Part shown: piece after piece, positions 45,727 through 64,000 of the stretch
Numbering within the stretch: position 1 is the first letter of the stretch
Layout of the letters: every line of letters begins with the position of its first letter
Origin: Mesorhizobium sp. J428
GTDB taxonomy: Bacteria; Pseudomonadota; Alphaproteobacteria; Rhizobiales; Rhizobiaceae
Assembly: GCF_024699925.1 (NCBI RefSeq)
Contig: NZ_JAJOMX010000001.1
Span: 992,001-1,056,000, forward strand
Length of the DNA stretch: 64,000 nucleotides
Reading direction: 5' to 3'
Program-made: the position numbers and the translations under genes
The notes under the pieces: generated by a model
What the model was told of the DNA's origin: nothing
The model's input: the letters and a program-made list of their open reading frames with translations, nothing else
The model's database searches: none

Positions 45727-46581
45727 GCCGCCTGCGCCGTCGTGCCGTAGACGATACCCTTTTCCTTGAGCCAGCGGCGGTAAGCGACGGAGGAGGCGTC
45801 GGCGCGCGTCGGGATCTCCGCGCGCGGCTCGAGCGGCAGGAGCACCGGCCGCTGGTTCTCGAGGATAATGCGGTCCTGCAGGAAGATGACCTGCTGGAAG
45901 GCGACGAGTTCGCTGACGGTCGAAACCTCATCGATGAGGAACATGACCGGATGCGCGCGGCAGCGCTCGGGATCGAGCGGCTGCACGAAGAGGCAGATCA
46001 CGTCCCAGCGGTTCGCCGCGTTCGGGCATGTCTTGTAGAGCATCACCGCGAAGGGGTTGGTGACCCGGCATGTATTGGGTCATGATCCCCTCGGTCGCCG
46101 AAAGCGCTGCCTGCGGCTGGAAGAACTCGCAATTCGTGGCCCAGACCTCGTCCACGTCGCGTCGAATCTCGGTCGTGTAGTGCCGCACCTCCGTGTGTGG
46201 CTCGGCGCCGAGGATATCGGTATGGACGAAGGGGAAATGCGCCATGTCGAGGAAATTCTCCACGACGCGCGGGCCGGACGCCTTGACCGAAATGGCCCCG
46301 CAGACGACCAGCCGCCGATCGGGCTCATGCGCCTCGGGGATTGACGGAATGTCGCCGGCCGGCTCGCCCAGGCTCGCCCAGAGATAGCCGTAGCCCATCT
46401 TCATGTGCACGACGGCGCCCGTGTCGGCCCGCACAACGGAGATCACCCCGTCCGCGGCGCGGGTCACCTTCAGGTCGTAGCCGAGAAGCCGGTTGGAGCT
46501 TTCGCCGACCGGAACGTCGTCCAGCGCGTCGATGCAGTACCACTGGTCGAGGGCGGCTTTTTCCGCAGGCTTCATCGTCAT
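45723..46581 (-). CDS. Rieske-less oxygenase catalytic subunit (NdmC-like), one-base frameshift
   Basis: This protein (about 285 residues after repair) is the non-haem-iron catalytic half of a Rieske oxygenase. The iron motif N-x2-D-x2-H-x4-H is complete at residues 109-120 (ENFLDMAHFPFVH). The CxH/CxxH Rieske cluster is absent: the flanking strands remain (LLGYDLKVTRAADG, then YGYLWASLGEP) but the cluster module between them is gone. The frame changes near 46060-46068 (first part ends MTQYM, second resumes RVTNPFAVMLYKT); removing one base restores it. Caffeine N7-demethylase NdmC has the same layout. It sits between an 8-oxoguanine-deaminase-like gene and an amidohydrolase. Confidence 0.8.
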
Positions 46582-46592
46582 GACGTCGCTCC

Positions 46593-47993
46593 TCATTGCT
46601 CGTAGACACGGTCCATGGTCGCCGCGTGCTCGGCGAGCGCGGCTTCCACGTCGAAGGCGCGGAACAGGCCCTTGCCGATGATCTCGCGGCCGTTGATGTA
46701 GGAATAGTCCACCTTGAACGGGCCGCAAAGCACCAGCGCGGCCAGCGGATCGCGCTGCGTGCCGGACAGGCCGATCTGGTCGCGCTTCACCGCGATAAAG
46801 TCGGCGCTCATGCCGGGCGCCAGATGGCCGATGTCGTCGCGTCCGAGCAGGGCCGCGCCGCCGCGCGTCGCCATCTCCAGCGCCTCGCGCGCCGACAATG
46901 CGCTCGGCGTGCCGCCGAAGCCGCCGCGGCCGCCGGGCTTCTCGGAAAGGTAGTGGTGCGGCGCGACGCGCTGGAGCATCAGCGCCAGCCGCGCCTCCAT
47001 GAACATGTTCGAGGTGTCGTTGGACGCCGAGCCGTCGACGCCGAGCCCCACCTTCACGCCCTTGTCGAGCATCTCGCGGATCTTGGCGATGCCCTGGCCG
47101 CAGCGCATGTTGGCGGACGGGCAATGCGCCACGCCCGTGCCCGTCTCGGCGAAACGGTCGATCTCGGCGCTGGTCATGAAGATCGAGTGCGCGAACCAGA
47201 CGTCATTGCCGAGCCAGCCCACGGACTCAGCGAATTCCACCGGGCGCATGCCATAGATCTCGTGGCAGTATTTCTCCTCGAACAGTTCCTCGGCGAGATG
47301 GGAATGCAGGTTCACGCCGGGATGCCGGCGGGCAAGCGCCGCGGCGTTGCGCATCAGGTCGGGCGTCACGGAGAAGGGCGAGCACGGCGCCAGGATGATC
47401 CGACTCATCGAGTGGCGGGAATTGTCGTGGTATGCACCGATCAGGCGCTCGGCGTCCTTGAGGATGGCATCTTCGTTCTCGACGCAACTGTCCGGCGGCA
47501 GGCCGCCCTGGCTCTCGCCGCGGGACATCGCCCCGCGCGCTGCGTGGAAGCGCAGGCCGAGCTCGCGCGCGGCCATGATGGTCGCGTCCAGCGTGCAGTT
47601 GTTTGGCAGGATGTAGAGATGGTCCGAGCTGGTGGTGCAGCCGGAGTGGATCAGCTCGGCCATCGCGACGCGCGCCGAGACTCGGATCGCGTCGTCGTCC
47701 AGCCGCGCCCAGATCGGATAGAGCGTCTTCAGCCAGACGAGCAGCTCGTCATCCTGCACCATGACCCGGGTCAGGTTCTGGTACATGTGATGATGCGTGT
47801 TGACCATGCCCGGCATGACCACATGCCCGGAGAGATCGAGCACCTCGTCTGCGCCGCTCGCCGCGAGTTCCGCTGTGGTACCGACCGTCTCGACGACATT
47901 GTCGCGCACCAGCATCGCGCCGTCGGCGATCTCGCGGCGCTCGTCGTCGAACGTCGCGAGAAGATCGATGTTTCTGACCAGAAGTGTCGCCAT
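46593..47993 (-). CDS. 8-oxoguanine deaminase-like amidohydrolase
   Basis: This is a 466-residue COG0402 deaminase. The motifs MPGMVNTHHHMYQNLTRVM near residue 60, NLHSHLAEE, CPSANMRCGQGIAKI and VGLGVDGSASNDTSNMF are those of characterised 8-oxoguanine deaminases, which produce urate from 8-oxoguanine. It lies 11 bases before the oxygenase catalytic subunit and ten bases after a nucleoside permease gene, so it acts on imported modified purines. Related pterin or other 8-substituted purine activity cannot be excluded. Confidence 0.87.
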   Translation of the reverse strand: MATLLVRNIDLLATFDDERREIADGAMLVRDNVVETVGTTAELAASGADEVLDLSGHVVMPGMVNTHHHMYQNLTRVMVQDDELLVWLKTLYPIWARLDDDAIRVSARVAMAELIHSGCTTSSDHLYILPNNCTLDATIMAARELGLRFHAARGAMSRGESQGGLPPDSCVENEDAILKDAERLIGAYHDNSRHSMSRIILAPCSPFSVTPDLMRNAAALARRHPGVNLHSHLAEELFEEKYCHEIYGMRPVEFAESVGWLGNDVWFAHSIFMTSAEIDRFAETGTGVAHCPSANMRCGQGIAKIREMLDKGVKVGLGVDGSASNDTSNMFMEARLALMLQRVAPHHYLSEKPGGRGGFGGTPSALSAREALEMATRGGAALLGRDDIGHLAPGMSADFIAVKRDQIGLSGTQRDPLAALVLCGPFKVDYSYINGREIIGKGLFRAFDVEAALAEHAATMDRVYEQ

Positions 47994-48003
47994 CCCGATC
48001 GCC

Positions 48004-48939
48004 TCAGCGCACGTCGCGGAAATAGGGTTCGCCGAGCGCGGCGGGCGCCGCCATCATCCGCCGCACCTTCTGCCAGGCGAGGACCGGCACGATGATGAGC
48101 GCGATGGTGCCGAGATAGGGCAGCATGGAGAGCACAGGCGCGGCGATCGGCCAGTTGCGCGCCTGGCCGACAAAACCGAGCGAGGTGATGAGGCCGAAGA
48201 GAAGCGCTGCGAGCACCGCGTTGAGCGGCCGGTAGCCTGCGAAGATGACGAGCGCCACCGCGATCCAGCCGCGTCCGGCCACCACGCCTTCCGACCAGGA
48301 GGGCACGAAGGCGAGCGTGAGATAGGCCCCCGCGCCGGCTGCGAGCGCCGCGCCGGCAGAGACATACCAGAAGCGCATTCGCTGCACGGGTATGCCCGCT
48401 GCATCGGCGGCTGCTGGATTCTCGCCCACCGCCCGCATGTCGAGCCCGTGGCGAGTGCGGAACATCAGGTAGTGGAGCGCCAGCGGCAGGACGATGTAGA
48501 TCAGGTAGACGAGGATGTTCTGTGTGAACAGCGCGCGGCCGAGGAGCGGGATGTCGCTGAGCAGCGGGATCGGGATCGGCGTGAAAGTGGCGGGCGCGGG
48601 CATGCCCGAATAGGCCTTGCCGATCGTGGCGGCGAGGCCCGTGCCCATCAGCGTCAGCGCCAATCCGCACAGCACCTGGTTGGCCCGGATGTAGACCGTA
48701 GCGGCGGCGAAGACCATGCCGGCGAGGAGACCGACGAGCAGCGCAAGGAAGAAGCCTAGCATCGGGCTCGGCACGGCGACCACGGTTGCGATGCCGGTGA
48801 TCGCACCGACGGCCATCAGGCCCTCGACGCCGAGATTGACGACGCCGACGCGCTCCGCAAGCACCTCGCCGAGGGCCGCCAGCGCCAGCACGCCGCCGGC
48901 GAGGATGGAGGTCTGGATCAGGCCGGCGATCAGGTCCAT
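48004..48939 (-). CDS. Nucleoside ABC importer permease 2
   Basis: This is a 311-residue inner-membrane permease of the BMP/branched group (about eight to nine segments; ERVGVVNLGVEGLMAVGAITG near residue 29). It pairs with the permease encoded directly upstream. Homologous four-gene sets import purine nucleosides in other bacteria. Confidence 0.9.
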   Translation of the reverse strand: MDLIAGLIQTSILAGGVLALAALGEVLAERVGVVNLGVEGLMAVGAITGIATVVAVPSPMLGFFLALLVGLLAGMVFAAATVYIRANQVLCGLALTLMGTGLAATIGKAYSGMPAPATFTPIPIPLLSDIPLLGRALFTQNILVYLIYIVLPLALHYLMFRTRHGLDMRAVGENPAAADAAGIPVQRMRFWYVSAGAALAAGAGAYLTLAFVPSWSEGVVAGRGWIAVALVIFAGYRPLNAVLAALLFGLITSLGFVGQARNWPIAAPVLSMLPYLGTIALIIVPVLAWQKVRRMMAAPAALGEPYFRDVR

Positions 48940-48960
48940 CGCAAAACTCCGTCTGCTCGA

Positions 48961-50013
48961 TCACCCATTCGCCGGCTCCGCGCGCGTGATGCGATAGTGC
49001 GCCGCCTCGTCGCCGATCGCGGTGAAGAACAGGATCAGGCCGGTGATCGCCAGGACGGTCGAGACGTTGACGCCCTGGGTCTGCAGGATGATGCCGGAAT
49101 TCAGGATCACGCCCATCAGCGCCGCCCCCGCCAGCACGCCGAGCGCCGAGCCGCGCGCCAGCACTGCAACCATGATGCCGAGATAGCCGAAATTGTTGGA
49201 AATCCCGCCCTGCAGGCGGTGGACCGTTCCTGCGACCTCCAGCATCCCGGCAACACCGGCGATCGCGCCCGACAGGAGCATGACCGTGATGAGATGGCGT
49301 CGGAACGGCATGCCGGCATATTTCGCAGCACTTGGATTGGAACCGGCGATGCGGACCTCGTAGCCCCAGCGGGAATAGTTGAGCGTGGCCGCAACTATGA
49401 AGGTGAGGAGAATCGCGATCGGAAAGCCCCAGTGCACGATGCCCCAGAACTCCGGCACTTCGTGCGGCAGCTTGGCCGTCGTCGCAAGCGCGCGGCCGCT
49501 CGGATCGAGCCAGGGACCGGTCGCGACCCAATAGACAAGCAGCGTCGCGACGAAGTTGAGGAGGAGCGTCGTGATTAGCTCGCTGACATCGGCATAGGCG
49601 CGCGCAAGCGTCGGGACGAGGATCCAGATCAGACCGCCCAACGCGCCTGCAATGAACATCAGCGGCAGAAGAACGATCGTCGGCCCGGGGACGAACAGCG
49701 CGACGCCGGTCGCGGCAAAGGCGCCGGCATAGAACTGCCCCTCCGCACCGATGTTCCAGGCACCGATCTTCAGCGCCACGGCGACGGAGAGGCCGGTCAG
49801 GATCAGCGGCGTGACGAGCAGGCCGACATCCTCAAGCCCGAAGCTGTTGCCGAAGGTCGACCGCACCACCTGCATGGCAAGACCGACTGGGTTCGCGCCC
49901 GACGCGGCGAGCACGAGCCCGGCCACAACGAGCGCCAGCACAATGGCGATGGCGCGCGCGGCAAGTGCTACGGCGGGCTGGGCAGAGGGAACGCGCTGGA
50001 TACGGAACGACAC
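48961..50013 (-). CDS. Nucleoside ABC importer permease 1
   Basis: This is a 350-residue permease with about nine segments (ALKIGAWNIGAEGQFYAGAF is the family landmark). The start is GTG 50013 (SFRIQRVPS), with GGAG ten bases upstream; the frame continuing to 50652 is a shadow of the ATPase gene. It follows the ATPase stop by two bases. Confidence 0.88.
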   Translation of the reverse strand: MSFRIQRVPSAQPAVALAARAIAIVLALVVAGLVLAASGANPVGLAMQVVRSTFGNSFGLEDVGLLVTPLILTGLSVAVALKIGAWNIGAEGQFYAGAFAATGVALFVPGPTIVLLPLMFIAGALGGLIWILVPTLARAYADVSELITTLLLNFVATLLVYWVATGPWLDPSGRALATTAKLPHEVPEFWGIVHWGFPIAILLTFIVAATLNYSRWGYEVRIAGSNPSAAKYAGMPFRRHLITVMLLSGAIAGVAGMLEVAGTVHRLQGGISNNFGYLGIMVAVLARGSALGVLAGAALMGVILNSGIILQTQGVNVSTVLAITGLILFFTAIGDEAAHYRITRAEPANG

Positions 50014-50015
50014 GC

Positions 50016-51608
<1,593 letters not shown>

Positions 51609-51628
51609 GGATATCTGGCCTGTCGAAA

Positions 51629-52744
51629 TCAGAGACCGCTGACGCCTTCGATGGACCAATCCCAGTTGTAGAGTTCCTCCTCGGTCATGCGGTGGCCGGC
51701 GGCCACCTTCACATTGCCCTTGGCGTCCTTGATCTCGCCTTCGAATGGGCTCCAGCCGCCAAGGATCTTGTCGCGCACGGCATCGGCCTGCTTGGCGACC
51801 TCCGGCGGAACGGTCTCGCCCCAGGCGTCGCGGTCGACGCCCGCGCCCATCGCGAGCAACGTCTCGCTCGGCGTCCACTTGCCCTCGAGGCGCATCCGCA
51901 CCTGATCGACATAGTATTTCTTAAAGTCGATGACGATCGAGGAGACATAGGCCTTCGGCCCGTAGCGGCGGATGTCGGTGTTCCACATCACCGCCTTGGC
52001 GCCGCGCTGTTCGGCAACCTGCAGGTAGCCCGCCTCGTCCATGATACCGAACAGGAGGTCGCAGCCATTGTCGAGCAACGCCGTGCCGGCCTGCGTGGCG
52101 GCCTGCGGGTCGAACCAGGAGTTGATGACGATCGCCTGCATGGTGGCGTTCGGGTTCACCGAGCGGGCGCCCATCAGGAACGCATTGGTTCCCGAATAGA
52201 CGGACGGGACCGGGAAGGACGCCACATAGCCGAGCTTGCCGCTCTTGCTCATCAAGCCGGCGGCGACGCCTGTCACATAGGTCGGATACCAGTGCTGGAG
52301 GTAGTAAGTGCCGAGATTGGAGAGCGGATTGCGGCCGTCGCATTCGTAGAAGGCGACATCCGGCGAGCGGTTCGCCACGTCATAGAGGAAATCGCCGTAG
52401 TTGGAGGTCGCGAACACCATGTTGGCGCCCTCGGACACGAACTGGCGGAAGGTACGGGTCGCGTCGGCGGAATAGGGAATGCTCTCGACGAAGAGCGTCT
52501 TCAGCTTAGGGAACGCCTCCTGGACCGCCTTCATGCCCTGGTCGTGGCTCCAGGTCCAACCCTCGTCAGTGACGGGGCCGGTGTGGCCGAAGGCGATGAC
52601 GGCGTTCTCCTCGGCGACCGCCGGCAGCGGCTCCTGGGCGCGGGCCGGGGTGATCAGGCCGGTCTTGGGAAGGATGAGCGAAGCGCCCGCGGCGGCGCCG
52701 ATGTTGAGGAAGCCGCGACGTGTCAGATGCGAAAGCTTGAGCAT
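51629..52744 (-). CDS. BMP-family nucleoside-binding protein
   Basis: This is a 371-residue periplasmic binding protein with a Tat-type signal (LTRRGFLNIGAAAGASLIL, cut near ARAQEPL). The mature part has AFGHTGPVTDEGWTWSHDQG and NRSPDVAFYECDG, the BMP/PnrA fold that binds purine nucleosides in characterised members. It is followed by the ATPase and two permeases. The gene directly upstream is adenosine deaminase, which strongly supports nucleosides as cargo. Confidence 0.9.
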   Translation of the reverse strand: MLKLSHLTRRGFLNIGAAAGASLILPKTGLITPARAQEPLPAVAEENAVIAFGHTGPVTDEGWTWSHDQGMKAVQEAFPKLKTLFVESIPYSADATRTFRQFVSEGANMVFATSNYGDFLYDVANRSPDVAFYECDGRNPLSNLGTYYLQHWYPTYVTGVAAGLMSKSGKLGYVASFPVPSVYSGTNAFLMGARSVNPNATMQAIVINSWFDPQAATQAGTALLDNGCDLLFGIMDEAGYLQVAEQRGAKAVMWNTDIRRYGPKAYVSSIVIDFKKYYVDQVRMRLEGKWTPSETLLAMGAGVDRDAWGETVPPEVAKQADAVRDKILGGWSPFEGEIKDAKGNVKVAAGHRMTEEELYNWDWSIEGVSGL

Positions 52745-52769: not shown

Positions 52770-53810
52770 TCAGGCTTGGGAGGTGAGTTCGCTTGCGATG
52801 AGCCCGTCGATTTCGGCTGACCAGTCGGACATCCACGTCCGCTTGGTTTCGGGCTCGAGCCAGGAGGCAGCGAGGCCGGCGAGCGCGACCTCTTTCAGCC
52901 GGACCGGCGACAAGCCGAAATTCTTGGCGATCAGCGTATATTCGCGATCGAGCGTCGTGCCGAACATCGGCGGATCGTCGGTGTGGATCGTGACGTTGAG
53001 CCCCGCATCCATCATGCGGCGGATGGCGTGGTCAGGCGATGCGAGATCGCGCCAGACGGTGGTGACGAGCGTGGTGCTGGGACAGCAGGTGAACACGACG
53101 TCGAGTTCGCGGCAGCGTTCCATCAGGGCCGGATCGTCGACGACATGGTACCCATGGTCGACCCGCCGCAGGCCGAGCAGATCGACCGTGTCGCGGACAT
53201 AGTCCGCCGGGCCGTCCTCGCCCGCATGGTTGGTGACGTTGAGCCCAGCCGCCCTGGCGCGATCGACGATGCGCGAGAACATGCCGGGCGGATTGGGCCG
53301 CTCGTCATAGTCGAAACCGATGCCGATGACCTCTGCCGGACGTTCGGCGAGCACCATGTCGAGGAAGCGCTCGCCACCCTCCGCGCCGAGCGGCTTGGCA
53401 TGGGCCGGAATGAGCCTGGCGACGAGACCATACTTTTCCCTGGCGCGGCGGAAGCCGTCGAGGATGCCTTCGAGCATGGTCGAATAGGCCACACCGTGGG
53501 CGAGATGGGCATGCGGGCTGAAGAACAGCTCGACATAGCGCGCGCCGCCCAGCGCGCACCGCTCGAGCGCCTCGAAGGTGATGCGCGAGAAATCGTCGAC
53601 ACTGCGCACCGATGCGCAGACGAGATCGTAGACCTTCAGAAAATCGAGCAGGTTGCCGTAGCTGTAGAGGTCTTCGGTCGCCTTGCCTTCGGGCAGGACC
53701 ACGCCGTTCCGCGCCGCAAGCTCGGCGAAGGTCGAGGCAGACACGGCACCTTCCAGATGCAGATGCAGTTCGGCCTTAGGTATGCGGCGAATGAAACCCT
53801 CTAACGACAT
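52770..53810 (-). CDS. add: Adenosine deaminase family protein
   Basis: This 346-residue enzyme converts adenosine to inosine, or an N-substituted adenosine or adenine to the oxo form. It has PKAELHLHLEGAVSAS near residue 12 (zinc HxH), NVTNHAGEDGP with the catalytic Glu, RRVDHGYHVVDD and NVTIHTDDPPMFG with the zinc Asp. ATG 53810 is chosen because MSLEGFIRRIPKAELH is the family start. It is the first gene of the leftward purine operon, ahead of the nucleoside importer. Adenine-specific relatives exist, so adenosine is likely but not certain. Confidence 0.88.
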   Translation of the reverse strand: MSLEGFIRRIPKAELHLHLEGAVSASTFAELAARNGVVLPEGKATEDLYSYGNLLDFLKVYDLVCASVRSVDDFSRITFEALERCALGGARYVELFFSPHAHLAHGVAYSTMLEGILDGFRRAREKYGLVARLIPAHAKPLGAEGGERFLDMVLAERPAEVIGIGFDYDERPNPPGMFSRIVDRARAAGLNVTNHAGEDGPADYVRDTVDLLGLRRVDHGYHVVDDPALMERCRELDVVFTCCPSTTLVTTVWRDLASPDHAIRRMMDAGLNVTIHTDDPPMFGTTLDREYTLIAKNFGLSPVRLKEVALAGLAASWLEPETKRTWMSDWSAEIDGLIASELTSQA

Positions 53811-54013
53811 GGCACCCTTTGTCCCGAGCGGGAGTTGTTCGATCTCGTGAACGTTTATCCCGCCACCTGTCCTTCCATACGCAACACATGTCAGGGAAAA
53901 CGGGCTTGCACAAGCCGAAATTTGATGCCTAATTAGACAAGAAATCAAGCTGCACAATAATTATGCAAAATGCCAGAAACTGGGCACTACATGGTTGAGC
54001 GAAGGGCGCAGCG
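53811..54013. promoter_or_regulatory. Divergent promoter of the purine island, with dyad
   Basis: This 203-base AT-richer spacer separates the two purine operons. It contains TGCACAATAATTATGCA (53951-53967), a palindrome with one mismatched pair, followed by AAATGCC. A related dyad lies before the split TPP-enzyme genes (58473-58497). A LysR regulator encoded in the rightward operon (57537) is the best candidate to bind both. Confidence 0.5.
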
Positions 54014-54286
54014 ATGGCTGTGACGGAAACGGTGCGGATGTCCTTCACCGGTCGCTTCGTGCCGCCCAGCTTTCTGGAGTTTATCGACCGGCGCGCGGCG
54101 CGCCTCGACCTGGACGTCTCGGTCACCAGCGCGGATACCGGCCGCGTGGCCGTCGAAATCTCGGGACAGCCGGATCTTATCGACGCGTTCGAGATGGCGT
54201 GCAGCCTCGGTCCGCTGGACTGCATCGTCCTCGACTGCGGCCGCACGATTATACAAGCAGGCAGAATGGAGAACGGGCACCGATGA
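54014..54286 (+). CDS. Acylphosphatase-like small protein
   Basis: This is a 90-residue protein with the beta-alpha-beta-beta-alpha-beta pattern of acylphosphatases: VRMSFTGRFVPPSFLEFIDR, then GRVAVEISGQPDLIDAFE and LGPLDCIVLDC. The usual phosphate-loop signature (GxVQGVxFR) is replaced by GRFVPPSFLEF, so the catalytic Arg is missing and ordinary acylphosphatase activity is unlikely. Its TGA overlaps the ATG of the Rieske protein. A structural or ligand-binding role in the oxygenase system is possible; the fold call is by eye. Confidence 0.55.
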   Translation: MAVTETVRMSFTGRFVPPSFLEFIDRRAARLDLDVSVTSADTGRVAVEISGQPDLIDAFEMACSLGPLDCIVLDCGRTIIQAGRMENGHR

Positions 54287-55002
54287 CCTTTCAAGGCTGG
54301 CACCCAGTAGCGCTTTCCTCGTCCATCGAGCCGGGAAGCTCCGCCGGAACCCATATCGGCGGGAAGGAATATGTGGTGTGGCGCGACAACAGCGGCGTCG
54401 CGCATGTCTGGGAGGATCGCTGCCCGCATCGCGGCATGAAGCTGTCCTTCGGCTTCGTACGTGGCGACCATATCGCCTGCCTCTATCACGGCTGGCAGTA
54501 CGACACCGGCGGCCGCTGCCGCTACATCCCCGCTCACCCCGCCCTTGAAGTGCCGGCCACGATCACCGTCCCGGTCTTCGCGACGATCGAGGCCCTCGGG
54601 ATGATCTGGACGAACGCGGAGCCGGAGGCCACACGCTCTGCTCCGCCGGCCGGCACCGGAGAAACCGTGCCGGTGCGCAGCCTCTACGTCGACAGCGACG
54701 TGGATCTGCTTCTCGAAGCGGTGGGCTCCAATCTCCCTTCTTCCTTCAAGGGTCAGGGCAAATCAGTCCTGACGCCCGCCGGCGAGAACCTGTGGCGCAT
54801 CTCGACGGGCGACGACCACCTGCTGTTGGGGCTCCAGCGCCTCGCCGACGGCCGCGCCGCGCTGCATGTCGTGATAGAGGGGCCGGCATCGGCCTATGCC
54901 GGCGCGGGACAGGCGCATTTCCTCGGCTGGACGACCGACGTGCGCTACGCGCTGGAGCACGGGCCGGCACCGATCCCGGCCACCCGCGCGGAGGCCGTCT
55001 GA
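54283..55002 (+). CDS. Stand-alone Rieske [2Fe-2S] protein
   Basis: This 239-residue protein has a complete oxygenase-type Rieske site, Cys47-Pro-His49 and Cys66-x2-His69 (DRCPHRGMKLSFG, then ACLYHGWQYD). The remaining 120 residues keep traces of an oxygenase C-terminal part (LGMIWTNAEPE, then a short beta-rich stretch) but have no D-x2-H-x4-H iron motif, so it cannot be a complete oxygenase. The two catalytic subunits in the window (45723-46581, 62671-63536) lack exactly this domain. It is coupled to the acylphosphatase-like gene upstream and the GST-like gene downstream (TGATG). Confidence 0.88.
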   Translation: MTFQGWHPVALSSSIEPGSSAGTHIGGKEYVVWRDNSGVAHVWEDRCPHRGMKLSFGFVRGDHIACLYHGWQYDTGGRCRYIPAHPALEVPATITVPVFATIEALGMIWTNAEPEATRSAPPAGTGETVPVRSLYVDSDVDLLLEAVGSNLPSSFKGQGKSVLTPAGENLWRISTGDDHLLLGLQRLADGRAALHVVIEGPASAYAGAGQAHFLGWTTDVRYALEHGPAPIPATRAEAV

Positions 55003-55634
55003 TGTCCGTCCTCACCCTCTACAACTACGACCTCGACGAGAACTGCTACAAGGTTCGGGTCGCGCTCTCGATGCTCGGCCTCGAATACAGGACAGCCGTC
55101 GTCAACGCCTTCCCCGGAAAGGAGCATCTGACGCCGCGCTTCCTGGCCATGAACCCGGCCGGAAGCCTGCCCATCCTCGAAGACGGCGATCTCACAGTGT
55201 TCGGCGCGGAAGCCATCCTGGCGCACCTCGCTGCTTCACGGGATGAGGCGCGGACATGGTTGCCCGCCGGGGGCGCGGATTTCGCCCGCGTGATGCAGTG
55301 GCTCACCTTCTCGGCGGGCGAACTCTCCGCCGCTGTCGCCGCGAGGGCGCACGCCCTGCTCGACGCGCCGGGCGACGAGGCCGCCCTTCGCGCCGGTGCG
55401 CGCAAGGCGCTGCGCGTCATGGATGATCACATGACGGCGCGCGGCTTTGCGGGCGCAGATTGGTTCGCGACGAGCGGCCCTACCGTCGCCGACATCGCGC
55501 TCTTCCCGGCCTTCGTCCTCAGTCGAGATTTTGGCGTCGACCACGATGAATATCCCGCGCTGCGGCGCTGGGCGCGGCGCTTCCGAGCCCTGCCGGGCTT
55601 CCTCACGATGCCGGGCATTCCCGACTATCATTGA
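55002..55634 (+). CDS. Glutathione S-transferase-like protein (NdmE-like candidate)
   Basis: This 210-residue GST-fold protein has an N-terminal thioredoxin-like domain ([44 protein letters not shown]) and a helical C-terminal domain ([17 protein letters not shown]). It directly follows the stand-alone Rieske gene with a one-base overlap. In Pseudomonas caffeine degradation a GST-like protein, NdmE, holds the Rieske-less NdmC together with the Rieske-bearing NdmD. By position this protein is the likely counterpart, although a true GST role is not excluded. Confidence 0.85.
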
Positions 55635-55686
55635 CAAGCGATTCGTAGGCCGCAAGGCGCGTTTCGCGCAGACCACGGAGTTCGAG

Positions 55687-57486
55687 ATGGGTTCACTGAC
55701 ACGTTTTTCGATCCAGCCTCTCTCGGCCATGACTCGCCGGCTGGCGGCGGTCGCCATGGGCTCGGCCGAGCCTGATCTCGTGATCGGCGGGGCACGCGTG
55801 CTCTCGACCTATTCCGAACGCATCCTGCCCGAGCGCGAGGTCTGGATTGCCGGCGGCCGCATCGCGGCGGTCAAGCCGGCAGGCAGCCACAAGGGCTCGG
55901 CAAAACGCTATGACGCCAAAGGCGGCATCATCGCGCCCGGCCTCGTCGACCCGCACATCCATATCGAATCGAGCATGGTCACCGCCTGCGCCTACGCGGA
56001 AGCGGCACTTCTGAACGGCACCACGACGATCTTTTGCGACAGCCACGAGATCGGCAACGTCATGGACGTCGCCGGTGTGGAGGCTATGCTGGAAGACGCG
56101 CGCGAGGCGCCTCTGTCGATCTTCCTCACCGTACCGAGCACGGTTCCCGCAACCTCGCCGCAGCTCGAGACGGCCGGCGGGGACCTGACCCCGGACAAGA
56201 TCGGCGCGCTGTTCGACAAATGGCCGGAGGCGGTAGCACTCGGCGAGAAGATGGACTTCGTCCAGGTCGCCATGGGCGACGAACGCAGCCATGCGATCCT
56301 GGCCGCAGCGCTGCAGCGCGGACGGCCCGTCTCCGGCCATGTTTACGGCCGCGAATTCGTTTCGGCCTATGCCGCGTCCGGCGTGACGGACACGCATGAG
56401 GCGATCGACCGCGAGATCGCCGACGACATGCTGGAAGCCGGCATCTGGCTCTTCCTGCGCGGTGGCCCGCCGACGACGCCATGGCACAGCCTGCCGCAGG
56501 CGATCAGGACGATCACCGAACTCGGTGCCTCGCACAAGCGCATCGCCGTCTGCACCGACGACCGCGATGCCGACGACCTGCTCCTGTTCGGTCTCGACTG
56601 GGTGGTGCGCGAGGCGATCAAGGCCGGCATGAGCCCGGAAAAGGCCTGGAGTATGGGCTCGCTGCACGGCGCGACCCGCTTCGGGGCGGAAGGCGAGATC
56701 GGTGGTCTGGGCGGTGGCCGCCGCGCCGACCTCGTGCTCCTCGACGACGCCATGAAGCCGGTCAACACCTGGTATGGCGGCGAACTGGTGGTCGAGGGCG
56801 GGAAGATCACGCCGCTGCTCGATCACGAACTGTCCACACGCTATCGCTATCCCGAAGCGGCCTACCACACGGTCAAGCTGCCCGAGGGATTGAAGCTGAC
56901 GCCTGAGCTGCCGACGGAGCCCGTAACCGTCAACGCGATCCGGACCGAGCTGCCGGGCATTACCCTCGGCCACGAGAAGATCCGGCTCGAACCCGCCAAC
57001 GACTGGCAGGGCCATTTCGACCGCCACGGACTCTGTTTCGTCACGGTGGTGGAGCGGCACGGCAAGTCGGACGGCAATGTCGCGCACGGGCTGCTCAGCA
57101 ACTTCGCGCTCGGGCGCGGCGCGGTCGCCTCCTCGGTCGGCCATGACAGCCACAACATCATCATCGCCGGCGTCAACGAGGCCGACATGCAGGTCGCGCT
57201 GCGCGCGATCCAAGAGACGCAGGGCGGCGTCTGCGTCGTTGTCGACGGCAAGGTGAGCGCCATGGTCGAGTTGCCGATCGCCGGCCTCCTGTCCGACAAG
57301 CGAGTGACCGAGGTGGCCGAGGAGATGAAACTGCTGAAGAAGGAATGGGAGGCTGCCGGCTGCTCGATCCCGTATATGGGCTTCAACCTGATTCCGCTTT
57401 CGGTGATCCCCGAGATCCGCATCACCGACAAGGGACTGGTGCTGGTGCCACAGATGGAGATCGCACCGTTGTTCGAGGACGCATAG
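55687..57486 (+). CDS. ade: Adenine deaminase
   Basis: This is a 599-residue classic adenine deaminase (adenine to hypoxanthine). It has [16 protein letters not shown] near residue 90, [34 protein letters not shown] and the C-terminal domain [20 protein letters not shown]. Length and motifs are typical, unlike the divergent copy at 32906-34771. ATG 55687 is used; an internal ATG at [11 protein letters not shown] is possible. It is the fourth gene of the rightward purine operon. Confidence 0.94.
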
Positions 57487-57536
57487 GACATGGCCGTCTT
57501 GGCGAACCGGCGCCTGCCTTTCGGGATCTTGCTCTA

Positions 57537-58457
57537 GTGGACCTCTTCCGCTCGGGCCTCGTCTCGCCGCGCATCCACTACTTCCAGCTCGTGGCGCGGC
57601 TCGGCTCGGTGCGCCAGACTGCGCAGGTACTGAACGTCGCGCCGTCCTCGATCAGCCGGGTCATCAAGGGTCTCGAGGACGAGATCGGAACGCCCCTCTT
57701 CGAGCGCGTGCGCCAACGCCTCAAGCTCACCAGCGCCGGCGAACTGTTGCTCTACCACGCACGGCAGAGCAACACCGAGCTGACGCGCGCCTGGTCGGAG
57801 ATCAACGACCTGCGCGGGCTGAACCGCGGCGCGGTGTCGGTGACCGTCGTGGAGAGCGCGGCGCGCGGCCTGATGACCGAGGCGCTGAAGACGTTCTGGG
57901 CGCGCCATCCGCTGATCACGGTGGACATCCGCGTCGCCGGCTCGCAGCAGGCCTGTGACGCGGTGGCGGAGGGCGAATGCGACATCGCATTGGCGTTCGA
58001 CGTGCGCGTACCGCGCAATGTACGGCGGATCGCCGCCACGGCCCTGCCGCTCGGCGTGATTGCCTCTCCCGAAAGCCGCTTCGCCGGCCGCAAGAACCTG
58101 AAACTGTTCGACCTTTCCGGCGAGCAGGTCATCCTGTCGGATGCGAGCCTGGCGCTCGGCCTTTCCGTGGACGATGCGATCAACCGCTCGATCATCGACC
58201 TGACGCGCCGCTCGCGGACCAATTCGATCGCCCTGATGGTCGAGCTCGCGCGCATGAACCTCGGCGTCGCGCTGCAGACGCGCATCGGGGTCGAGAACGA
58301 GCTTGCCGAAGGCAGCCTGATCTTCCTGCCGATCAACGACGCCAAGCTACCGCCGCGGCGGCTGATGCTGCTGACGCGCACCGAACGCGAGATGTCCGAG
58401 GCGGCATCCGCCTTCGCCAACCTGCTCGCCCGTGCCATCGAAGTCCTTGGCGACTGA
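57537..58457 (+). CDS. LysR-family transcriptional regulator of the purine island
   Basis: This 306-residue regulator has an N-terminal winged helix (GSVRQTAQVLNVAPSSISRV, then GTPLFERVRQRLKLTSAGE) and the usual effector domain. The start is taken as GTG 57537; the frame to 57345 overlaps ade and lacks similarity. It is encoded in the middle of the rightward operon, which makes it the natural candidate to control both operons through the dyads at 53951 and 58473. Confidence 0.85.
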   Translation: MDLFRSGLVSPRIHYFQLVARLGSVRQTAQVLNVAPSSISRVIKGLEDEIGTPLFERVRQRLKLTSAGELLLYHARQSNTELTRAWSEINDLRGLNRGAVSVTVVESAARGLMTEALKTFWARHPLITVDIRVAGSQQACDAVAEGECDIALAFDVRVPRNVRRIAATALPLGVIASPESRFAGRKNLKLFDLSGEQVILSDASLALGLSVDDAINRSIIDLTRRSRTNSIALMVELARMNLGVALQTRIGVENELAEGSLIFLPINDAKLPPRRLMLLTRTEREMSEAASAFANLLARAIEVLGD

Positions 58458-58472
58458 GTTGTTGCGTTTTCC

Positions 58473-58497
58473 GCATCATCACAGCGCAAAATGATGC
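58473..58497. promoter_or_regulatory. Dyad upstream of the split TPP-enzyme genes
   Basis: GCATCAT (58473-58479) and ATGATGC (58491-58497) form a perfect 7-base inverted repeat with an 11-base centre containing GCGCAAA. The GCAAAATG string is shared with the spacer at 53964-53972. The site is 53 bases before the next start, suggesting an internal promoter under LysR control. Confidence 0.45.
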
Positions 58498-58549
58498 ACT
58501 ATCTGGAACAACTCCAGTCTGCGAAATTGCAGTCTCACGGAGACGTCAC

Positions 58550-59050
58550 ATGAAGCAGAGCGCCGTCGAAGCGGTCATCAGGGGCCTGAAGAAAGCGGGG
58601 GTCAGCATCGTCTGCTACCTGCCGGATTCGCTGTTCAAGGAACTCTATCCGGCGCTGGACGCCGACCCTGACATCCGCACCATCCGCGTGACCAATGAGG
58701 GCGAAGGCGCTGCGATCTGCGGCGGCGTCTTCCTGTCCGGCAAACGCGCGGCGCTGGTGATGGAGAACTCCGGCCTGCGCGCCTCGGTCGAACCGCTGGC
58801 GCGCATGGGGCTGGGTGCCGGCATCCCGGTGGTCATGCTGATGAGCTATCGCGGCGAACTCGGCGAGAACAATTGGTGGGCGATCCCGCACGGCATCACG
58901 ATGGAGCCGGTGCTGAACGCGCTGCGCATCCCTTATCGGGTCGTGCGCGAGGAAGACCAGATCGAACAGTCGATCGTCGACGCCTACAACTGGTCCTACA
59001 ACGCCTACTATCACTCGGCCATCGCGCTTGGCGGGAGCGTCGTCCGATGA
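58550..59050 (+). CDS. TPP-dependent decarboxylase-like alpha subunit (sulfopyruvate/phosphonopyruvate type)
   Basis: This is a 166-residue protein with the PYR domain of thiamine-pyrophosphate enzymes (GVSIVCYLPDSLFKEL, TNEGEGAAICGGVFLSGK with the catalytic Glu, MLMSYRGELGE). It matches the small alpha subunits of ComDE-type sulfopyruvate or phosphonopyruvate decarboxylases. Its stop overlaps the beta-subunit ATG (ATGA). The substrate in a purine operon is unclear; a 2-oxo acid or a one-carbon acceptor can only be guessed. Confidence 0.83.
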   Translation: MKQSAVEAVIRGLKKAGVSIVCYLPDSLFKELYPALDADPDIRTIRVTNEGEGAAICGGVFLSGKRAALVMENSGLRASVEPLARMGLGAGIPVVMLMSYRGELGENNWWAIPHGITMEPVLNALRIPYRVVREEDQIEQSIVDAYNWSYNAYYHSAIALGGSVVR

Positions 59051-59655
59051 AACGCTACGACTGCATGAAGCTCCTCGCCGCGCGGCTCAAGGACGAGCTG
59101 GTGATCCTGTCGCTCGGCGCATCGGTGGACGAGTGGTACAACGCCGCGCCGCATATGCGCGAGGCCAGCCTGTTCCAGCAGCAGCTCGGCTGCGTCACTC
59201 CGCAGGCCTTCGGCCTCGCCGCCGGCCTGCCGCACCGCCGCATCGTCTCGCTCGATACAGATGGTGGCATGATGTTCAACCTCGGCATTCTGGCCACGCT
59301 TGGCAACGAACAGCCGAAGAACCTGTTCGTCGTCGTCTGGGACAACGAATGCTACCAGTCGATCGGCGGCCCACCGACGCACACCGCCTTCGGACGCGTC
59401 GACATCGCCGCAATCGCACGCGGCGCGGGCGTCGAGAACGCCTACACCGCGCGCACGCTGGAAGAATTCGAAGCCCATTGCGAGGCTGGCCTCAAGGCCG
59501 ACGTTCCCTATGTCGTCGTCGCCAAAGTCGCAGGCACCGTCCAGCCCGACATCAAGCGCAAGCACTCGGACGGCCGCGAGGACAAATACATCTTCGTGCG
59601 CCACGTCGAGGCAACGGAAGGGATCGTCATCATGGGGCCGAGCGAGCATAACTGA
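59047..59655 (+). CDS. TPP-dependent decarboxylase-like beta subunit
   Basis: This 202-residue protein carries the PP domain. Its diphosphate-binding motif SLDTDGGMMFNLGIL (about residues 77-91) is followed, as usual after 25-30 residues, by VVVWDNECYQSIGG. Together with the preceding alpha subunit it forms one TPP active site split across two chains. A GMC oxidoreductase gene follows after seven bases. Confidence 0.83.
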   Translation: MKRYDCMKLLAARLKDELVILSLGASVDEWYNAAPHMREASLFQQQLGCVTPQAFGLAAGLPHRRIVSLDTDGGMMFNLGILATLGNEQPKNLFVVVWDNECYQSIGGPPTHTAFGRVDIAAIARGAGVENAYTARTLEEFEAHCEAGLKADVPYVVVAKVAGTVQPDIKRKHSDGREDKYIFVRHVEATEGIVIMGPSEHN

Positions 59656-59662
59656 CGGGCCG

Positions 59663-61228
59663 ATGTCCTCCCAAGCCGCCAACCTCCCCGTCCGTGCCCT
59701 GAAGGCCGGCTACGACTATGTCGTGATCGGCTCCGGCTCGGGCGGCTGTGCGGTGACGCGGCGGCTGGTCGATGCCGGCGCGGACGTGCTGCTGATAGAG
59801 GCCGGGCCACCCGGCATCGGCGTCGATGCAATCGAGGACCCGGCGAAATGGGTTCCGCTCGGGCGCAGCGCCTATGACTGGGGCTACGACTATGCGCCGA
59901 CGCCCCGCGTCAACGGCCGCACCATCGGCATCCCGCGCGGCAAGGTGCTGGGCGGATCGTCCGCTACCAATGCGATGATGTGGTATCGCGGCCATCCGCT
60001 CGACTACGACGCATGGGAAGAAGCCGGCGCCAAGGGGTGGAGCTTCGCCGACTGCCTGCCCTATTTCCGCCGCAGCGAGGACTGGGAAGACGGCGCGAGC
60101 GAATGGCGCGGCGCGGGCGGGCCGCTGCACATCGAACGCGCGCCCGACACCCATCCCGTCGCTCAGGCGCTGATCGACGGCGCGGCCTCGCTCGGCATCC
60201 CGGTGATCGACGATCCCAACGGTCCCGACAACGAGGGGGCTGCGCGCGCCAACTTCAACATCTCCGGCGGCAGGCGCTGGAGTTCAGCACGCGGCTATCT
60301 CCAGCCGATCTTCGACCGGTTGAACCTCACCGTGCTGACCAGGTCGCTGGCCGTCGGGCTGGTGCTCGAAAACGGCCGCTGCGTCGCGGTGCGCCACGTC
60401 ATCGACGGAGCCGTTCGCGAGACCCGCGCGCACCAGAAGATCATCCTCGCGCTCGGCGCGATCGACACGCCACGCCTGCTGATGCTGTCCGGCATCGGCG
60501 ATCCCGCCGAGCTGGCGCGGTTGGACATAACTGTCGCGCACCCGCTGCCGGGCGTCGGCCGGAATCTGCAGGACCATCCGCTGGCGCAGGCCTGCGTCTT
60601 CCGGGCCAAGCACCCGCTCGGACCCGTGACCGGCAATGGCGGCGGCTCGATGGTGAACTGGAAATCGCGCGCCGGCCTGCCGCAGGCGGACATCCATGCG
60701 TTTCCCGTGCAGGGCAACAGCGCGGAACCGGCCATACGCGCACGATACGACACGTCAGGCCACGTATTCTCCTTCGGCGCTGGCCTCATGCGCTCGAAGA
60801 GCGTCGGCTATCTCAAACTTCTGGAGGCCAAGCCCGGCGGCGCGCTGGAGATCCAGCCCAACTTCCTCGCCGAGCCCGAAGACGTCGACGCTATGATCAC
60901 CGCGGTCGAGATGACGATCGAGATGGCCACGGCGGATGCCAATGCCGATCTCTTCGGCGGCTTCGCTGCGCCCGACAGCCGGCTGACCCGCAGCGAGACC
61001 GTGGCTTTCCTGCGCAACGCCTGCTCCACCTTCTTCCACGTCTGCGGCACCTGCCGCATGGGCGAGGACGATGAAGCCGTCGTCGACAGCCGGCTGAACG
61101 TGCACGGTCTCGAAGGGCTGATGGTCGCGGACGCCTCGGTCATGCCGGTCATACCGAGCTGCAACACCCATGCGCCCACGACCATGATCGGCGAGCGTGC
61201 GGCGGATTTCACGATGGGATTGGTATGA
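59663..61228 (+). CDS. GMC-family FAD oxidoreductase
   Basis: This 521-residue flavoenzyme of the choline-dehydrogenase/alcohol-oxidase group has the N-terminal FAD motif YVVIGSGSGGCAVTRRL near residue 18, GKVLGGSSATNAMMWYRG near 95, and the C-terminal active-site region TFFHVCGTCRMG and SCNTHAPTTMIGE. It oxidises an alcohol group. In this operon the substrate is unknown. ATG 59663 is seven bases after the TPP beta subunit. Confidence 0.9.
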   Translation: MSSQAANLPVRALKAGYDYVVIGSGSGGCAVTRRLVDAGADVLLIEAGPPGIGVDAIEDPAKWVPLGRSAYDWGYDYAPTPRVNGRTIGIPRGKVLGGSSATNAMMWYRGHPLDYDAWEEAGAKGWSFADCLPYFRRSEDWEDGASEWRGAGGPLHIERAPDTHPVAQALIDGAASLGIPVIDDPNGPDNEGAARANFNISGGRRWSSARGYLQPIFDRLNLTVLTRSLAVGLVLENGRCVAVRHVIDGAVRETRAHQKIILALGAIDTPRLLMLSGIGDPAELARLDITVAHPLPGVGRNLQDHPLAQACVFRAKHPLGPVTGNGGGSMVNWKSRAGLPQADIHAFPVQGNSAEPAIRARYDTSGHVFSFGAGLMRSKSVGYLKLLEAKPGGALEIQPNFLAEPEDVDAMITAVEMTIEMATADANADLFGGFAAPDSRLTRSETVAFLRNACSTFFHVCGTCRMGEDDEAVVDSRLNVHGLEGLMVADASVMPVIPSCNTHAPTTMIGERAADFTMGLV

Positions 61229-61271
61229 CACTTGCGTTTCCAACCCGCATGTCGACGCAGGAGAACGGCCG

Positions 61272-62654
61272 ATGATGACTGGAGCACTTATCCTCGCCGG
61301 CGAAGCGCTTCTGACCATGGATGCGGCAAACACGACGCTGGCGGACGGCGCCGTCTTGATCGAGGACGGCCACATCGCCGCCGTGGGCACGCTGGCTGAA
61401 CTGAGCGCTGCCAGCCCCGAAGTAGCGGTCAAGAAGGTGGCCAATGCCGTCCTGATGCCGGGGCTGGTCAACGCGCACGCCCATTCCGGCTTCCTGCGCG
61501 GCACGGCTGAGCATTTGCCGGTGTGGGACTGGCTGACGCTGCACATCAACCCCATGCACCGCATGCTGCAGCCGCACGAAGCGGAGGCCGCCTCGTGGCT
61601 CTGTTATGCCGAGTCCGTTCTGGGCGGCACAACCACGGTCGTCGACATGTGGCGTTTCATGGACGGTAGCGCCAGGGCAGCAGAGGCAGTCGGCAACCGG
61701 CTGGTCGCCGTTCCATACGTCGGGGAGCATCCGGACTACGATTACTTCGACACGCTCGACATGAACGAGGCCCTGATCGAGGCCTGGCATCGCAAGGCGG
61801 ACGGCAGGGTCAATGTCTGGGTCGGGCTGGAGCATCTGTTCTACGCCGACGAGGCCGGCCAGCGGCGCGCGATCGAGCTGGCGAAAAAGCACGGCACCGG
61901 CTTTCACACCCATTGCAGCGAAGCCGAGATCGAGCTGGCCGAGTTCCATAAGCGCTACGGCAAACGACCGATGTTCGCGCTGGAAGAGCTGGGGTTCTTC
62001 GAGACCCCGCGCGCTATGATCGCCCACGGCGTCTGGCTGGATTCCAGCGAAATCGACCTGATCGCGAAGTATCCGGTCTCGGTCGCGCACAATCCGGTCT
62101 CGAACATGAAACTCGCCAGCGGCATCGCCCGCGTCGGCGAAATGCTGGCCGCGGGCGTGCCCGTCGGCATCGGCACCGACGGCGAGAAGGAGAACAACAA
62201 TTTCGACATGTTCGAGGAGATGAAGGTTGCCTCGCTTGTCGGCAAGCTGAAGGACCTCGACGCCGCCGCGATGGATAGCTGGGACGTGCTGAGAATGGCG
62301 ACGATCACCGGCGCGAAAGCGATCGGGCTGGACCACGAGATCGGATCGATCGAGCCGGGCAAGCGCGCGGACATCATAGCCGTGCGCGCAGACACCCCGC
62401 GCATGACGCCGTTCTTTGCCGACGGACCCTACTTCAACCTCCAACACAACCTCGTCCACGCGGTGCGCGGCGGCGACGTGACGCTGACCATGGTGGACGG
62501 GAAGATCCTGGTCGAGGACGGCCAGCTGAAAACCGCCGACCTGAAGGACATCATCGCCGAAATCCATCGTGTCGCGCCCGGCCTCTTCGCCCGCAGAGCC
62601 GCGTGGCTGGCGCAGAATGCGGAAGGCACGATGCAGTGGACGAAGGCATCGTGA
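61272..62654 (+). CDS. Amidohydrolase, purine-type deaminase (COG0402)
   Basis: This is a 460-residue deaminase with zinc ligands LMPGLVNAHAHSGFLRGT near residue 61, GFHTHCSEAEIELAE, MIAHGVWLD and VGIGTDGEKENNNFDMF. The Glu-Lys-Glu insertion after the zinc Asp distinguishes it from the copy at 44392-45726 and suggests another substrate. It is followed after 16 bases by the second catalytic oxygenase subunit, repeating the deaminase-oxygenase pairing seen at 44-46 kb. Confidence 0.87.
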   Translation: MMTGALILAGEALLTMDAANTTLADGAVLIEDGHIAAVGTLAELSAASPEVAVKKVANAVLMPGLVNAHAHSGFLRGTAEHLPVWDWLTLHINPMHRMLQPHEAEAASWLCYAESVLGGTTTVVDMWRFMDGSARAAEAVGNRLVAVPYVGEHPDYDYFDTLDMNEALIEAWHRKADGRVNVWVGLEHLFYADEAGQRRAIELAKKHGTGFHTHCSEAEIELAEFHKRYGKRPMFALEELGFFETPRAMIAHGVWLDSSEIDLIAKYPVSVAHNPVSNMKLASGIARVGEMLAAGVPVGIGTDGEKENNNFDMFEEMKVASLVGKLKDLDAAAMDSWDVLRMATITGAKAIGLDHEIGSIEPGKRADIIAVRADTPRMTPFFADGPYFNLQHNLVHAVRGGDVTLTMVDGKILVEDGQLKTADLKDIIAEIHRVAPGLFARRAAWLAQNAEGTMQWTKAS

Positions 62655-62670
62655 CACGGAGACCCCGATC

Positions 62671-63536
62671 ATGAAGACGACGGACAGGGCCGCGCTGGAC
62701 GAGTGGTACGCAGTCGAGACCTCAACCGACCTGACCGCCGCGCCACTGAAGACGCGGCTGCTCGGCCAGGACATCGAGCTTCGGCGCGACGGGGAAGGCA
62801 GGCCGGTCGTGCGCGAGATCCTGGATGACGGCGCGCGCGGGCCGGCGCTGCCCGCGCAGGAGCGCTACGGCTGCGTCTGGACGACGCTCGGCCATCCCAA
62901 CCGGGACATTTTCGACATCGCGGAAGCTCTGGAGACCGACCGCCGCTTCATCCCTGCGGCTGGGTGAAGATGCGTGCATCGGGCCTGCGGGTGGTCGAGA
63001 ATTTCCTCGACATGGCGCATTTCCCTTTCGTCCACACCGATATTCTCGGCTCCGAGCCGCACACGGAAGTGCCGCAGTATCTGAGCGAGATCCGCCGCGA
63101 TGTGGACGAGGTGTGGGCGACCAACTGCACCTTCTTCCAGCCGCGCATCGCCGCCACCGAATCGAACGGCGATTTCGTCCACCTGACCTACCGGGTCCCG
63201 ACGCCCTTCGTGGTCATGCTCTACCGAGTGTGCCCGACCGCACCCGACAGGCTCGACGCCATCGCGCTCTTCATCCAGCCGATGGAGGAGGACCTCTGCC
63301 GGGCGCAGCCGGTGATGTATCTGGTGGACAAGACCTCCACCCATACGGCGCTGCTGAATTTCGAGCAGGTGATCTTCCTGCAGGACCGGATCATCGTGGA
63401 GAACCAGCGCCCGCTGCTTCTGCCGCTCGAGCCGCGCGCGGAAATCCCCACGCGGGCCGACTCCTCCTCCGTCGCCTACAGGCGCTGGCTAAAGGAGAAG
63501 GGTATCCGCTTCGGCACGACCATGGGAGCGGCATGA
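62671..63536 (+). CDS. Rieske-less oxygenase catalytic subunit 2 (NdmC-like), one-base frameshift
   Basis: After repair this is a 288-residue catalytic subunit. The iron motif ENFLDMAHFPFVH is at about 110-122, and the C-terminal half is nearly identical to the 45723-46581 protein (QVIFLQDRII, LEPRAEIPTRAD, SSVAYRRWLKEKGI). The N-terminal part differs. The Rieske cluster is absent: ELRRDGEGRPVVREILDDG runs straight into ERYGCVWTTLG. Frame one stops at 62967 and frame two opens at a GTG overlapping that stop; adding one C to CCC at 62952-62954 gives RRFIPCGWVKMRASG and matches the paralog. Its stop overlaps the ATG of the xanthine-dehydrogenase FAD subunit. Confidence 0.8.
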
Positions 63537-64000
63537 CCACTGCGGCGCATGGAATACGCGTGCTGCGGCCGGCGACGCTCGCGGAAGCGCTGGAGATGGC
63601 GACCGAGCCCGACGCGCGCCTCTTCGCCGGCGGCACCGCGCTGCAACTCGACTGGGCAAAGGGCATCGCGCAGCCGCGCATGCTGGTCGCGCTCGACCGG
63701 ATTTCCGGCCTCGGAGGCGTTTCGACGACGGCAGGAACAGTCCGCATCGGCACCCTCACCACCCTCGGCGCGCTGGAACGGGATCCCACCATCGCCTCGG
63801 CGCTGCCGCTGCTCCACGCAGCCATCCGCTCCACGGCCGGCCCGAGCGTGCGCACTCTCGCGACCATCGGCGGCAATGTCGCCGGACGAACCGGCTGCCT
63901 CCTGCCCGCGCTCCTCGCTCTCGATGCCGAGGTCATCGTGTCGGGCGGCTCCGGCGAAGTGACGCTTCCTCTCACGAACTGGCTATCGCGGCAGGCGCAC
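63533..64000 (+). CDS. Xanthine dehydrogenase FAD-binding subunit, N-terminal part (3' end outside window)
   Basis: The visible 156 codons encode the FAD domain of a molybdenum hydroxylase medium subunit: VLRPATLAEALEMA, then LFAGGTALQLDWAKG, RIGTLTTLGALERD and TLATIGGNVAGRTG, the two glycine-rich FAD loops of the CoxM/XdhB family. It would pass electrons from xanthine oxidation to FAD. Its ATG overlaps the stop of the catalytic oxygenase subunit, linking demethylation and xanthine oxidation in one transcript. The molybdenum and iron-sulfur subunits should lie beyond the window. Confidence 0.9.
   Translation, partial: MTTAAHGIRVLRPATLAEALEMATEPDARLFAGGTALQLDWAKGIAQPRMLVALDRISGLGGVSTTAGTVRIGTLTTLGALERDPTIASALPLLHAAIRSTAGPSVRTLATIGGNVAGRTGCLLPALLALDAEVIVSGGSGEVTLPLTNWLSRQAH

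Follow-up and report, generated by a model that had tools for sequence, protein, structure and literature searches.

A free Rieske protein and Rieske-less catalytic proteins in a four-gene relative of NdmCDE at a purine-catabolism locus of Mesorhizobium

Introduction

How could a Rieske oxygenase operate if its Rieske cluster and its catalytic iron were carried by separate proteins, and what would it act on? This question is raised by a 64,000-nucleotide stretch of the Mesorhizobium sp. J428 genome (hereafter the window; G000:C1:992001-1056000, from an assembly of 5.9 Mb in 5 contigs, 99.5% complete). The window encodes a free Rieske protein, a glutathione S-transferase (GST)-like protein, an acylphosphatase-like protein (the product of the acyl gene below) and, at two loci, catalytic proteins with an iron motif. 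The set is a four-gene relative of NdmCDE without a reductase, in a purine-catabolism locus.

NdmCDE is described as the N7-demethylase complex of Pseudomonas putida CBB5 (PMC4408171, PMC10380055, PMC13237722), with three copies of each subunit and a structural role for NdmE (PMC10380055). According to a 2015 review, NdmCDE was the first example reported of a Rieske domain that has been split off and resides on a reductase. The review also notes homologues of ndmCDE whose function is unknown, mostly from Sinorhizobium and Mesorhizobium (PMC4408171). The wider family was therefore already known. No free-Rieske or acylphosphatase-carrying variant is described in the titles and abstract openings of the open-access papers listed by the searches.

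The gene set of the window

The components of the predicted oxygenase are as follows.

54014..54286, + strand: acylphosphatase-like protein, 90 amino acids (aa); PF00708 at 16.7 bits, short of the 22.5-bit family cut-off; opens the operon
54283..55002, + strand: free Rieske protein, 239 aa; one Rieske domain (PF00355, E=2.2e-23)
55002..55634, + strand: GST-like protein, relative of NdmE, 210 aa (PF02798, PF00043)
45723..46581, - strand: catalytic gene 1, NdmC-like; frame change at about 46050-46080
62671..63536, + strand: catalytic gene 2, NdmC-like; frame change at about 62920-62970

The acyl, Rieske and GST-like genes overlap, and all three frames are open. Catalytic gene 1 is split into frames 45928-46581 and 45723-46046, and catalytic gene 2 into frames 62671-62967 and 62964-63536. 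An initial annotation of this DNA had recognized the stand-alone Rieske protein with its ligands Cys47, His49, Cys66 and His69, as well as the GST-like partner, and both stand. It had also reported two Rieske-less proteins with the iron motif D-x2-H-x4-H; the motif is found at both loci, but neither gene is a single open frame. The acyl gene was passed over, although the interval that the annotation claimed starts with it.

Proposed reciprocal losses in the Rieske and catalytic proteins

The two metal sites are divided strictly between the two proteins. The four cluster ligands of the Rieske protein are invariant in 66 aligned sequences, and among 128 Rieske proteins (112 free, 16 fused) all have the Rieske motif and none has the iron motif. 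Conversely, D114, H117, H122 and D239 of the catalytic protein are invariant in 54 aligned rows, and D-x2-H-x4-H is present in 172/172 catalytic proteins (matches >200 bits and >250 positions, with the broken copies of the window excluded). A Rieske motif in the catalytic proteins had been named as an observation that would speak against a split enzyme, and it occurs in 0/172 of these relatives. Full-length relatives have both motifs (3/3). The Rieske ligands C-x-H and C-x2-H plus the 2-His-1-Asp iron site are thus complete only in both proteins together.

The profile alignments suggest how this division may have come about. The catalytic profile aligns to residues 102-333 of SxtDIOX (112 bits) and to residues 3-48, and the 53 SxtDIOX residues that it skips contain all four cluster ligands (counted on the alignment). 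Because the skipped segment is the one with the ligands, the catalytic subunit seems to keep both ends of the Rieske fold and to have lost the cluster-binding insert. The term Rieske-less is right for the motif, but too simple for the fold. The Rieske profile is collinear with residues 9-209 of SxtT, extending past the Rieske domain. It is also collinear with a profile of catalytic and full-length proteins (98% probability, E=1.8e-13, in a single-target comparison), where the D-x2-H-x4-H stretch is replaced. The comparison that reached along the chain had fused and full-length relatives added, and a narrower one of the Rieske and catalytic profiles covered only 46 N-terminal columns (87% probability). 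The Rieske protein seems to retain a decayed catalytic half, which is the weaker part of the case. Taken together, the alignments suggest that the split proteins are two diverged copies of one ancestral oxygenase with reciprocal losses. If true, this would explain how NdmCDE arose and would predict, for its structure, a vestigial catalytic domain in the Rieske part of NdmD and a Rieske fold minus the insert in NdmC.

Comparison with NdmCDE and undivided oxygenases

For a direct comparison, we used a sample of 348 genomes from the family of G528. A catalytic match (E<=1e-20) was found in six, four of them of split type, and the loci of these four were retrieved. All four have consecutive genes for the catalytic subunit, the Rieske-reductase fusion and the GST-like protein, and three have a full-length oxygenase upstream as well. 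At one of them, L167, the full-length enzyme scores 634 bits to NdmB and the fused protein 116 bits to the NdmD ferredoxin structure. Its order NdmB-orf-NdmC-NdmD-NdmE fits the cluster given in the published account (PMC10380055), except that the permease is placed elsewhere. L167 was used as the ndm reference on account of these matches and gene order. With intact relatives (L008 and P0001) in place of the broken copies of the window, catalytic types 1 and 2 are 50% and 44% identical to L167 NdmC. The Rieske protein is 35% identical over 155 aa to the N-terminus of L167 NdmD, and the GST-like protein 38% identical over 206 aa to L167 NdmE.

Like NdmCDE, the window has a catalytic subunit without Rieske cluster, a Rieske site on another chain and a GST-like partner beside it. 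Unlike in NdmCDE, the Rieske protein of the window is free and not fused to a reductase, and the locus adds the acyl gene, a second catalytic gene and a context of deaminases and a nucleoside importer. The likeness to NdmCDE, judged from the genes, holds for the architecture. The NdmCDE-type arrangement of the initial annotation was right in kind, with homologous subunits and an unfused Rieske protein, but the system is not simply a Rieske domain working in trans, and a fourth component absent from that account, the acyl gene, travels along.

The best PDB matches of both split proteins are the solved structures SxtT/SxtDIOX and NdmA/NdmB, which differ from the window proteins in being homomeric with both metal sites on each chain. 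In a sample of 249 genomes of the order (described below), the closest undivided relatives are the single-chain oxygenases of L110, L111 and L147 (338-343 aa, both motifs). These are not split, and no GST or acyl match occurs in the fetched stretches. The single-chain oxygenases L110:6308-7318 and L111:5880-6890 adjoin a BMP-type importer and an AraC-type regulator.

Co-occurrence of the components

The initial annotation had pointed to co-occurrence in relatives as a check. The 249 genomes were drawn independently of Rieske similarity and matched at E<=1e-20, which gave a Rieske match in 79 and a catalytic match in 43. The 43 comprise 39 of split type and four with single-chain oxygenases, where both profiles fall on one frame (three were fetched and inspected; G114 was classed from coordinates). 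The strongest Rieske matches (E <=5e-34) fall in exactly these 39 split-catalytic genomes, so the correspondence is 39/39 both ways. The two genes lie on the same contig within ~8 kb in all of them. Where a genome has no split catalytic match, its Rieske matches are weaker and fall mostly on oxygenase-sized frames. The co-occurrence of the Rieske and catalytic genes exceeds chance. The family is thus found in 39/249 sampled genomes of the order, yet its members bear generic names among the matches listed. It may mark a route of modified-purine catabolism in soil and plant-associated bacteria.

A second set of 80 named loci was the best 80 of 517, picked by similarity to the Rieske protein. The Rieske and GST genes are present in all 80. 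A catalytic gene is missing only from L030, a contig of 7.3 kb, and the acyl gene only from L076, which leaves 79 loci with each. With the window included and L076 left out, the acyl-Rieske junction is a 4-base overlap in 35/80 loci, and the Rieske-GST junction a 1- or 4-base overlap in 78/80. The Rieske protein has 1868 matches, of which the best 120 were examined. Intact catalytic genes of the named loci are mostly 280-303 aa long; at L051 the catalytic frame runs on. A search with a length limit, which excluded longer proteins, gave 3994 catalytic matches at E<=1e-5, and among the best 120 most are 284-291 aa and mostly intact. In a Bradyrhizobium locus (L055:18456-19323), catalytic gene 2 also lies in two frames, of 84 and 246 aa.

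Architectures and trees

All 39 split loci of the order sample, the window among them, were read. The type of the window, a free Rieske protein with an acyl gene, occurs in 24. In 13 the Rieske protein is fused to a reductase, as judged by a match to the reductase half of L095, and Pfam scans of five fused proteins found a plant-type ferredoxin domain in 5/5 and an NAD-binding domain in 4/5. L101 has a free Rieske protein next to a separate reductase, and L106 has neither acyl gene nor reductase. No acyl match occurs in the 13 fused loci, and a GST match is present in 38/39 (absent from L097). At L137, one of the 24, the acyl gene is ~6 kb off and a reductase nearby stands beside a separate full-length oxygenase. 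In the fused-type loci L095 (9436-10431) and L092 (5997-6923), the catalytic genes are immediately preceded by a gene whose product has no Pfam match.

Among the 51 loci of the GST tree, 32 have only the acyl gene, 16 only a reductase, two neither and one both. The counts are inverse, but only three independent pairs stand on supported branches, going both ways. That the acyl gene is a functional substitute for the reductase is a hypothesis. The catalytic tree had 62 rows, including 11 of the 80 named loci; 11 near-duplicate loci were left out and the L101, L132 and L134 rows dropped for their long branches. It places the type of the window in a 39-row branch (100/99; 38 acyl, one bare), with the fused type spread outside it and a very long outgroup branch. 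A grouping of all acyl and bare rows is not rejected (approximately unbiased test, p-AU 0.453). A quick 94-row tree agrees in placing the fused type outside, and the GST tree puts it on one side of a branch (99/95).

The acylphosphatase-like protein may have no acylphosphatase activity. We take an Arg and an Asn to be the catalytic residues of acylphosphatases; with the columns matched by eye, the Arg is at the aligned column in only 5/107 sequences, and the Asn is not among the six commonest residues near its aligned position. A tentative extension, on balance unlikely, is that an inactive acylphosphatase-fold protein replaces the reductase that is part of the NdmD chain and brings in a generic ferredoxin or reductase, the whole being an obligate hetero-oligomer of degenerate paralogues and a widespread N-dealkylase of modified purines, for example from RNA turnover.

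Proposed mechanism and electron supply

The reading we lean towards is that two oxygenase copies, each degenerate where the other is preserved, form a heteromeric Rieske non-heme iron oxygenase with an NdmCDE-like mode of action, most likely on imported N-alkylpurines. The Rieske protein would hold the [2Fe-2S] site and the catalytic subunit the 2-His-1-Asp iron site. In the Rieske oxygenase CntA, the metal sites are >40 Å apart within a chain and adjacent between neighbouring chains, with a bridging glutamate that lies three residues ahead of the first iron His (PMC7948474). The catalytic subunits have an acidic residue, D114, at the position of this glutamate. The Rieske protein may pass electrons to the iron of an adjacent catalytic subunit via this invariant bridging Asp, which would mirror the transfer in ordinary Rieske oxygenases, where electrons cross between neighbouring subunits. 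The GST-like protein would be a structural partner, as proposed for NdmE, and the acylphosphatase-like protein would have a structural or docking role. The two catalytic subunits, each encoded beside an amidohydrolase of its own, would share a single Rieske/GST/acyl set.

Because the reductase half of NdmD is absent, the electrons would be supplied by a reductase or ferredoxin encoded elsewhere. The initial annotation saw no reductase gene; we found none in 40-64 kb of the window as read and none in the window by profile scan. NdmD-like reductases were searched (E<=1e-5) in the 24 acyl-type genomes plus G010 and G226. A match was found in 20/26, and the six genomes without one are all of acyl type. 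The best match of the window genome adjoins another Rieske oxygenase. A close full-length oxygenase partner was also sought in the window genome and rejected: its other Rieske matches are weak (best E=5.7e-6), and the catalytic query matched only the window's own pieces.

Neighbourhood and function

The genes around the set are as follows.

43019..44389, - strand: guanine deaminase (TIGR02967, 391.2 bits, cut-off 375.4)
44392..45726, - strand: TRZ/ATZ-type amidohydrolase, overlapping the end of catalytic gene 1; below cut-off for every NCBIfam family shown
46593..47993, - strand: 8-oxoguanine deaminase, directly upstream of catalytic gene 1 (NF006055, 616.9 bits, cut-off 532)
48004..52744, - strand: presumably a BMP/nucleoside-type ABC importer, with two permeases, ATPase and binding protein (weak NCBIfam BMP-type match)
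52770..53870, - strand: adenosine deaminase (TIGR01430, 273.2 bits, cut-off 216.55)
55687..57486, + strand: adenine-deaminase-like protein (TIGR01178, 348.1 bits, below the 472.5 cut-off)
58550..59655, + strand: two-subunit thiamine pyrophosphate (TPP) decarboxylase-like pair, sulfopyruvate decarboxylase-like, below cut-off
59705..61228, + strand: GMC-type oxidoreductase, choline-dehydrogenase-like, below cut-off
61272..62654, + strand: TRZ/ATZ-type amidohydrolase upstream of catalytic gene 2; below cut-off for every NCBIfam family shown
63533..64000, + strand: start of a xanthine-dehydrogenase-like FAD/molybdenum subunit, below cut-off, continuing past the window (L148)

Beyond the window, an iron-sulfur subunit and an aldehyde dehydrogenase (below cut-off) follow the xanthine-dehydrogenase-like subunit. 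The complex is probably used on unusual purines. Judging by gene order, its likeliest task would be to strip imported purines oxidatively of N-methyl or other N-alkyl groups, at a step between deamination and xanthine dehydrogenase. The simplest pathway would be deamination, then N-dealkylation, then xanthine oxidation, and N-demethylation of methylpurines is plausible in this neighbourhood. In the order loci (n=38), at least two importer parts occur in 18, a deaminase-family relative in 16 and either in 22; these counts stand without a random-locus control.

Several observations weigh against a split N-dealkylase of purines. Neither an importer pair nor a deaminase relative is present in 16/38 order loci, and in 17/80 named loci the fetched stretch has no purine gene of the window but just the four genes of the set, the catalytic one being divergent (some contigs are short). 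The search of the 26 genomes did not identify the electron donor. For the proposed reciprocal losses, the catalytic profile scores only 9.5 bits against the N-terminal residues 3-48 of SxtDIOX, and the C-terminal half of the Rieske protein alone is weak (P=2.3e-4, probability 44%; controls: GST profile P=0.044, acyl profile P=0.24). Both catalytic copies of the window genome are broken by a frame change, and the presence of TPP, GMC and aldehyde dehydrogenase genes may point to a substituent bigger than methyl.

The last point bears on the chemistry. The same complex might remove larger N-substituents or hydroxylate the purine ring instead of N-demethylating, which is doubtful but a real possibility. 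TPP decarboxylase-like, GMC and aldehyde dehydrogenase genes surround catalytic gene 2 in large loci, and formaldehyde alone would need none of them; however, the 17 minimal loci lack these genes, and the nearest characterized relatives by architecture are N-demethylases. It is rather unlikely that the system is dead in this genome with both catalytic genes true pseudogenes. Such decay would fit a frame change in both copies alongside open frames in the rest of the set, but the pieces still resemble intact relatives closely (for gene 2, 92-95% between its piece and the best among the matches listed). Because of this similarity, recent damage and assembly error are equally compatible, and the frame changes may be either.

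A plain NdmCDE orthologue that N7-demethylates 7-methylxanthine in a caffeine-type pathway is improbable. The subunits are homologous, and rhizobial ndmCDE homologues appear in the 2015 review (PMC4408171), but the reductase fusion is missing, an extra gene is present, full-length oxygenase matches in the own genome are weak, and the type of the window forms the separate 100/99 branch of the catalytic tree. Still less probably, the Rieske protein is an ordinary Rieske ferredoxin, soluble and working for other oxygenases. The single Rieske domain would suit this role, and some relatives are named 'nitrite reductase/ring-hydroxylating ferredoxin subunit'. However, the Rieske protein scores 84.3 bits to SxtT and 64.8 to NdmA against 25.8 to ferredoxins, is ~2x the length of the matched ferredoxin chains, and has a gene that accompanies the split catalytic gene in every one of the 39 genomes.

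The TPP decarboxylase-like pair of the window recurs next to catalytic gene 2 in many named loci.

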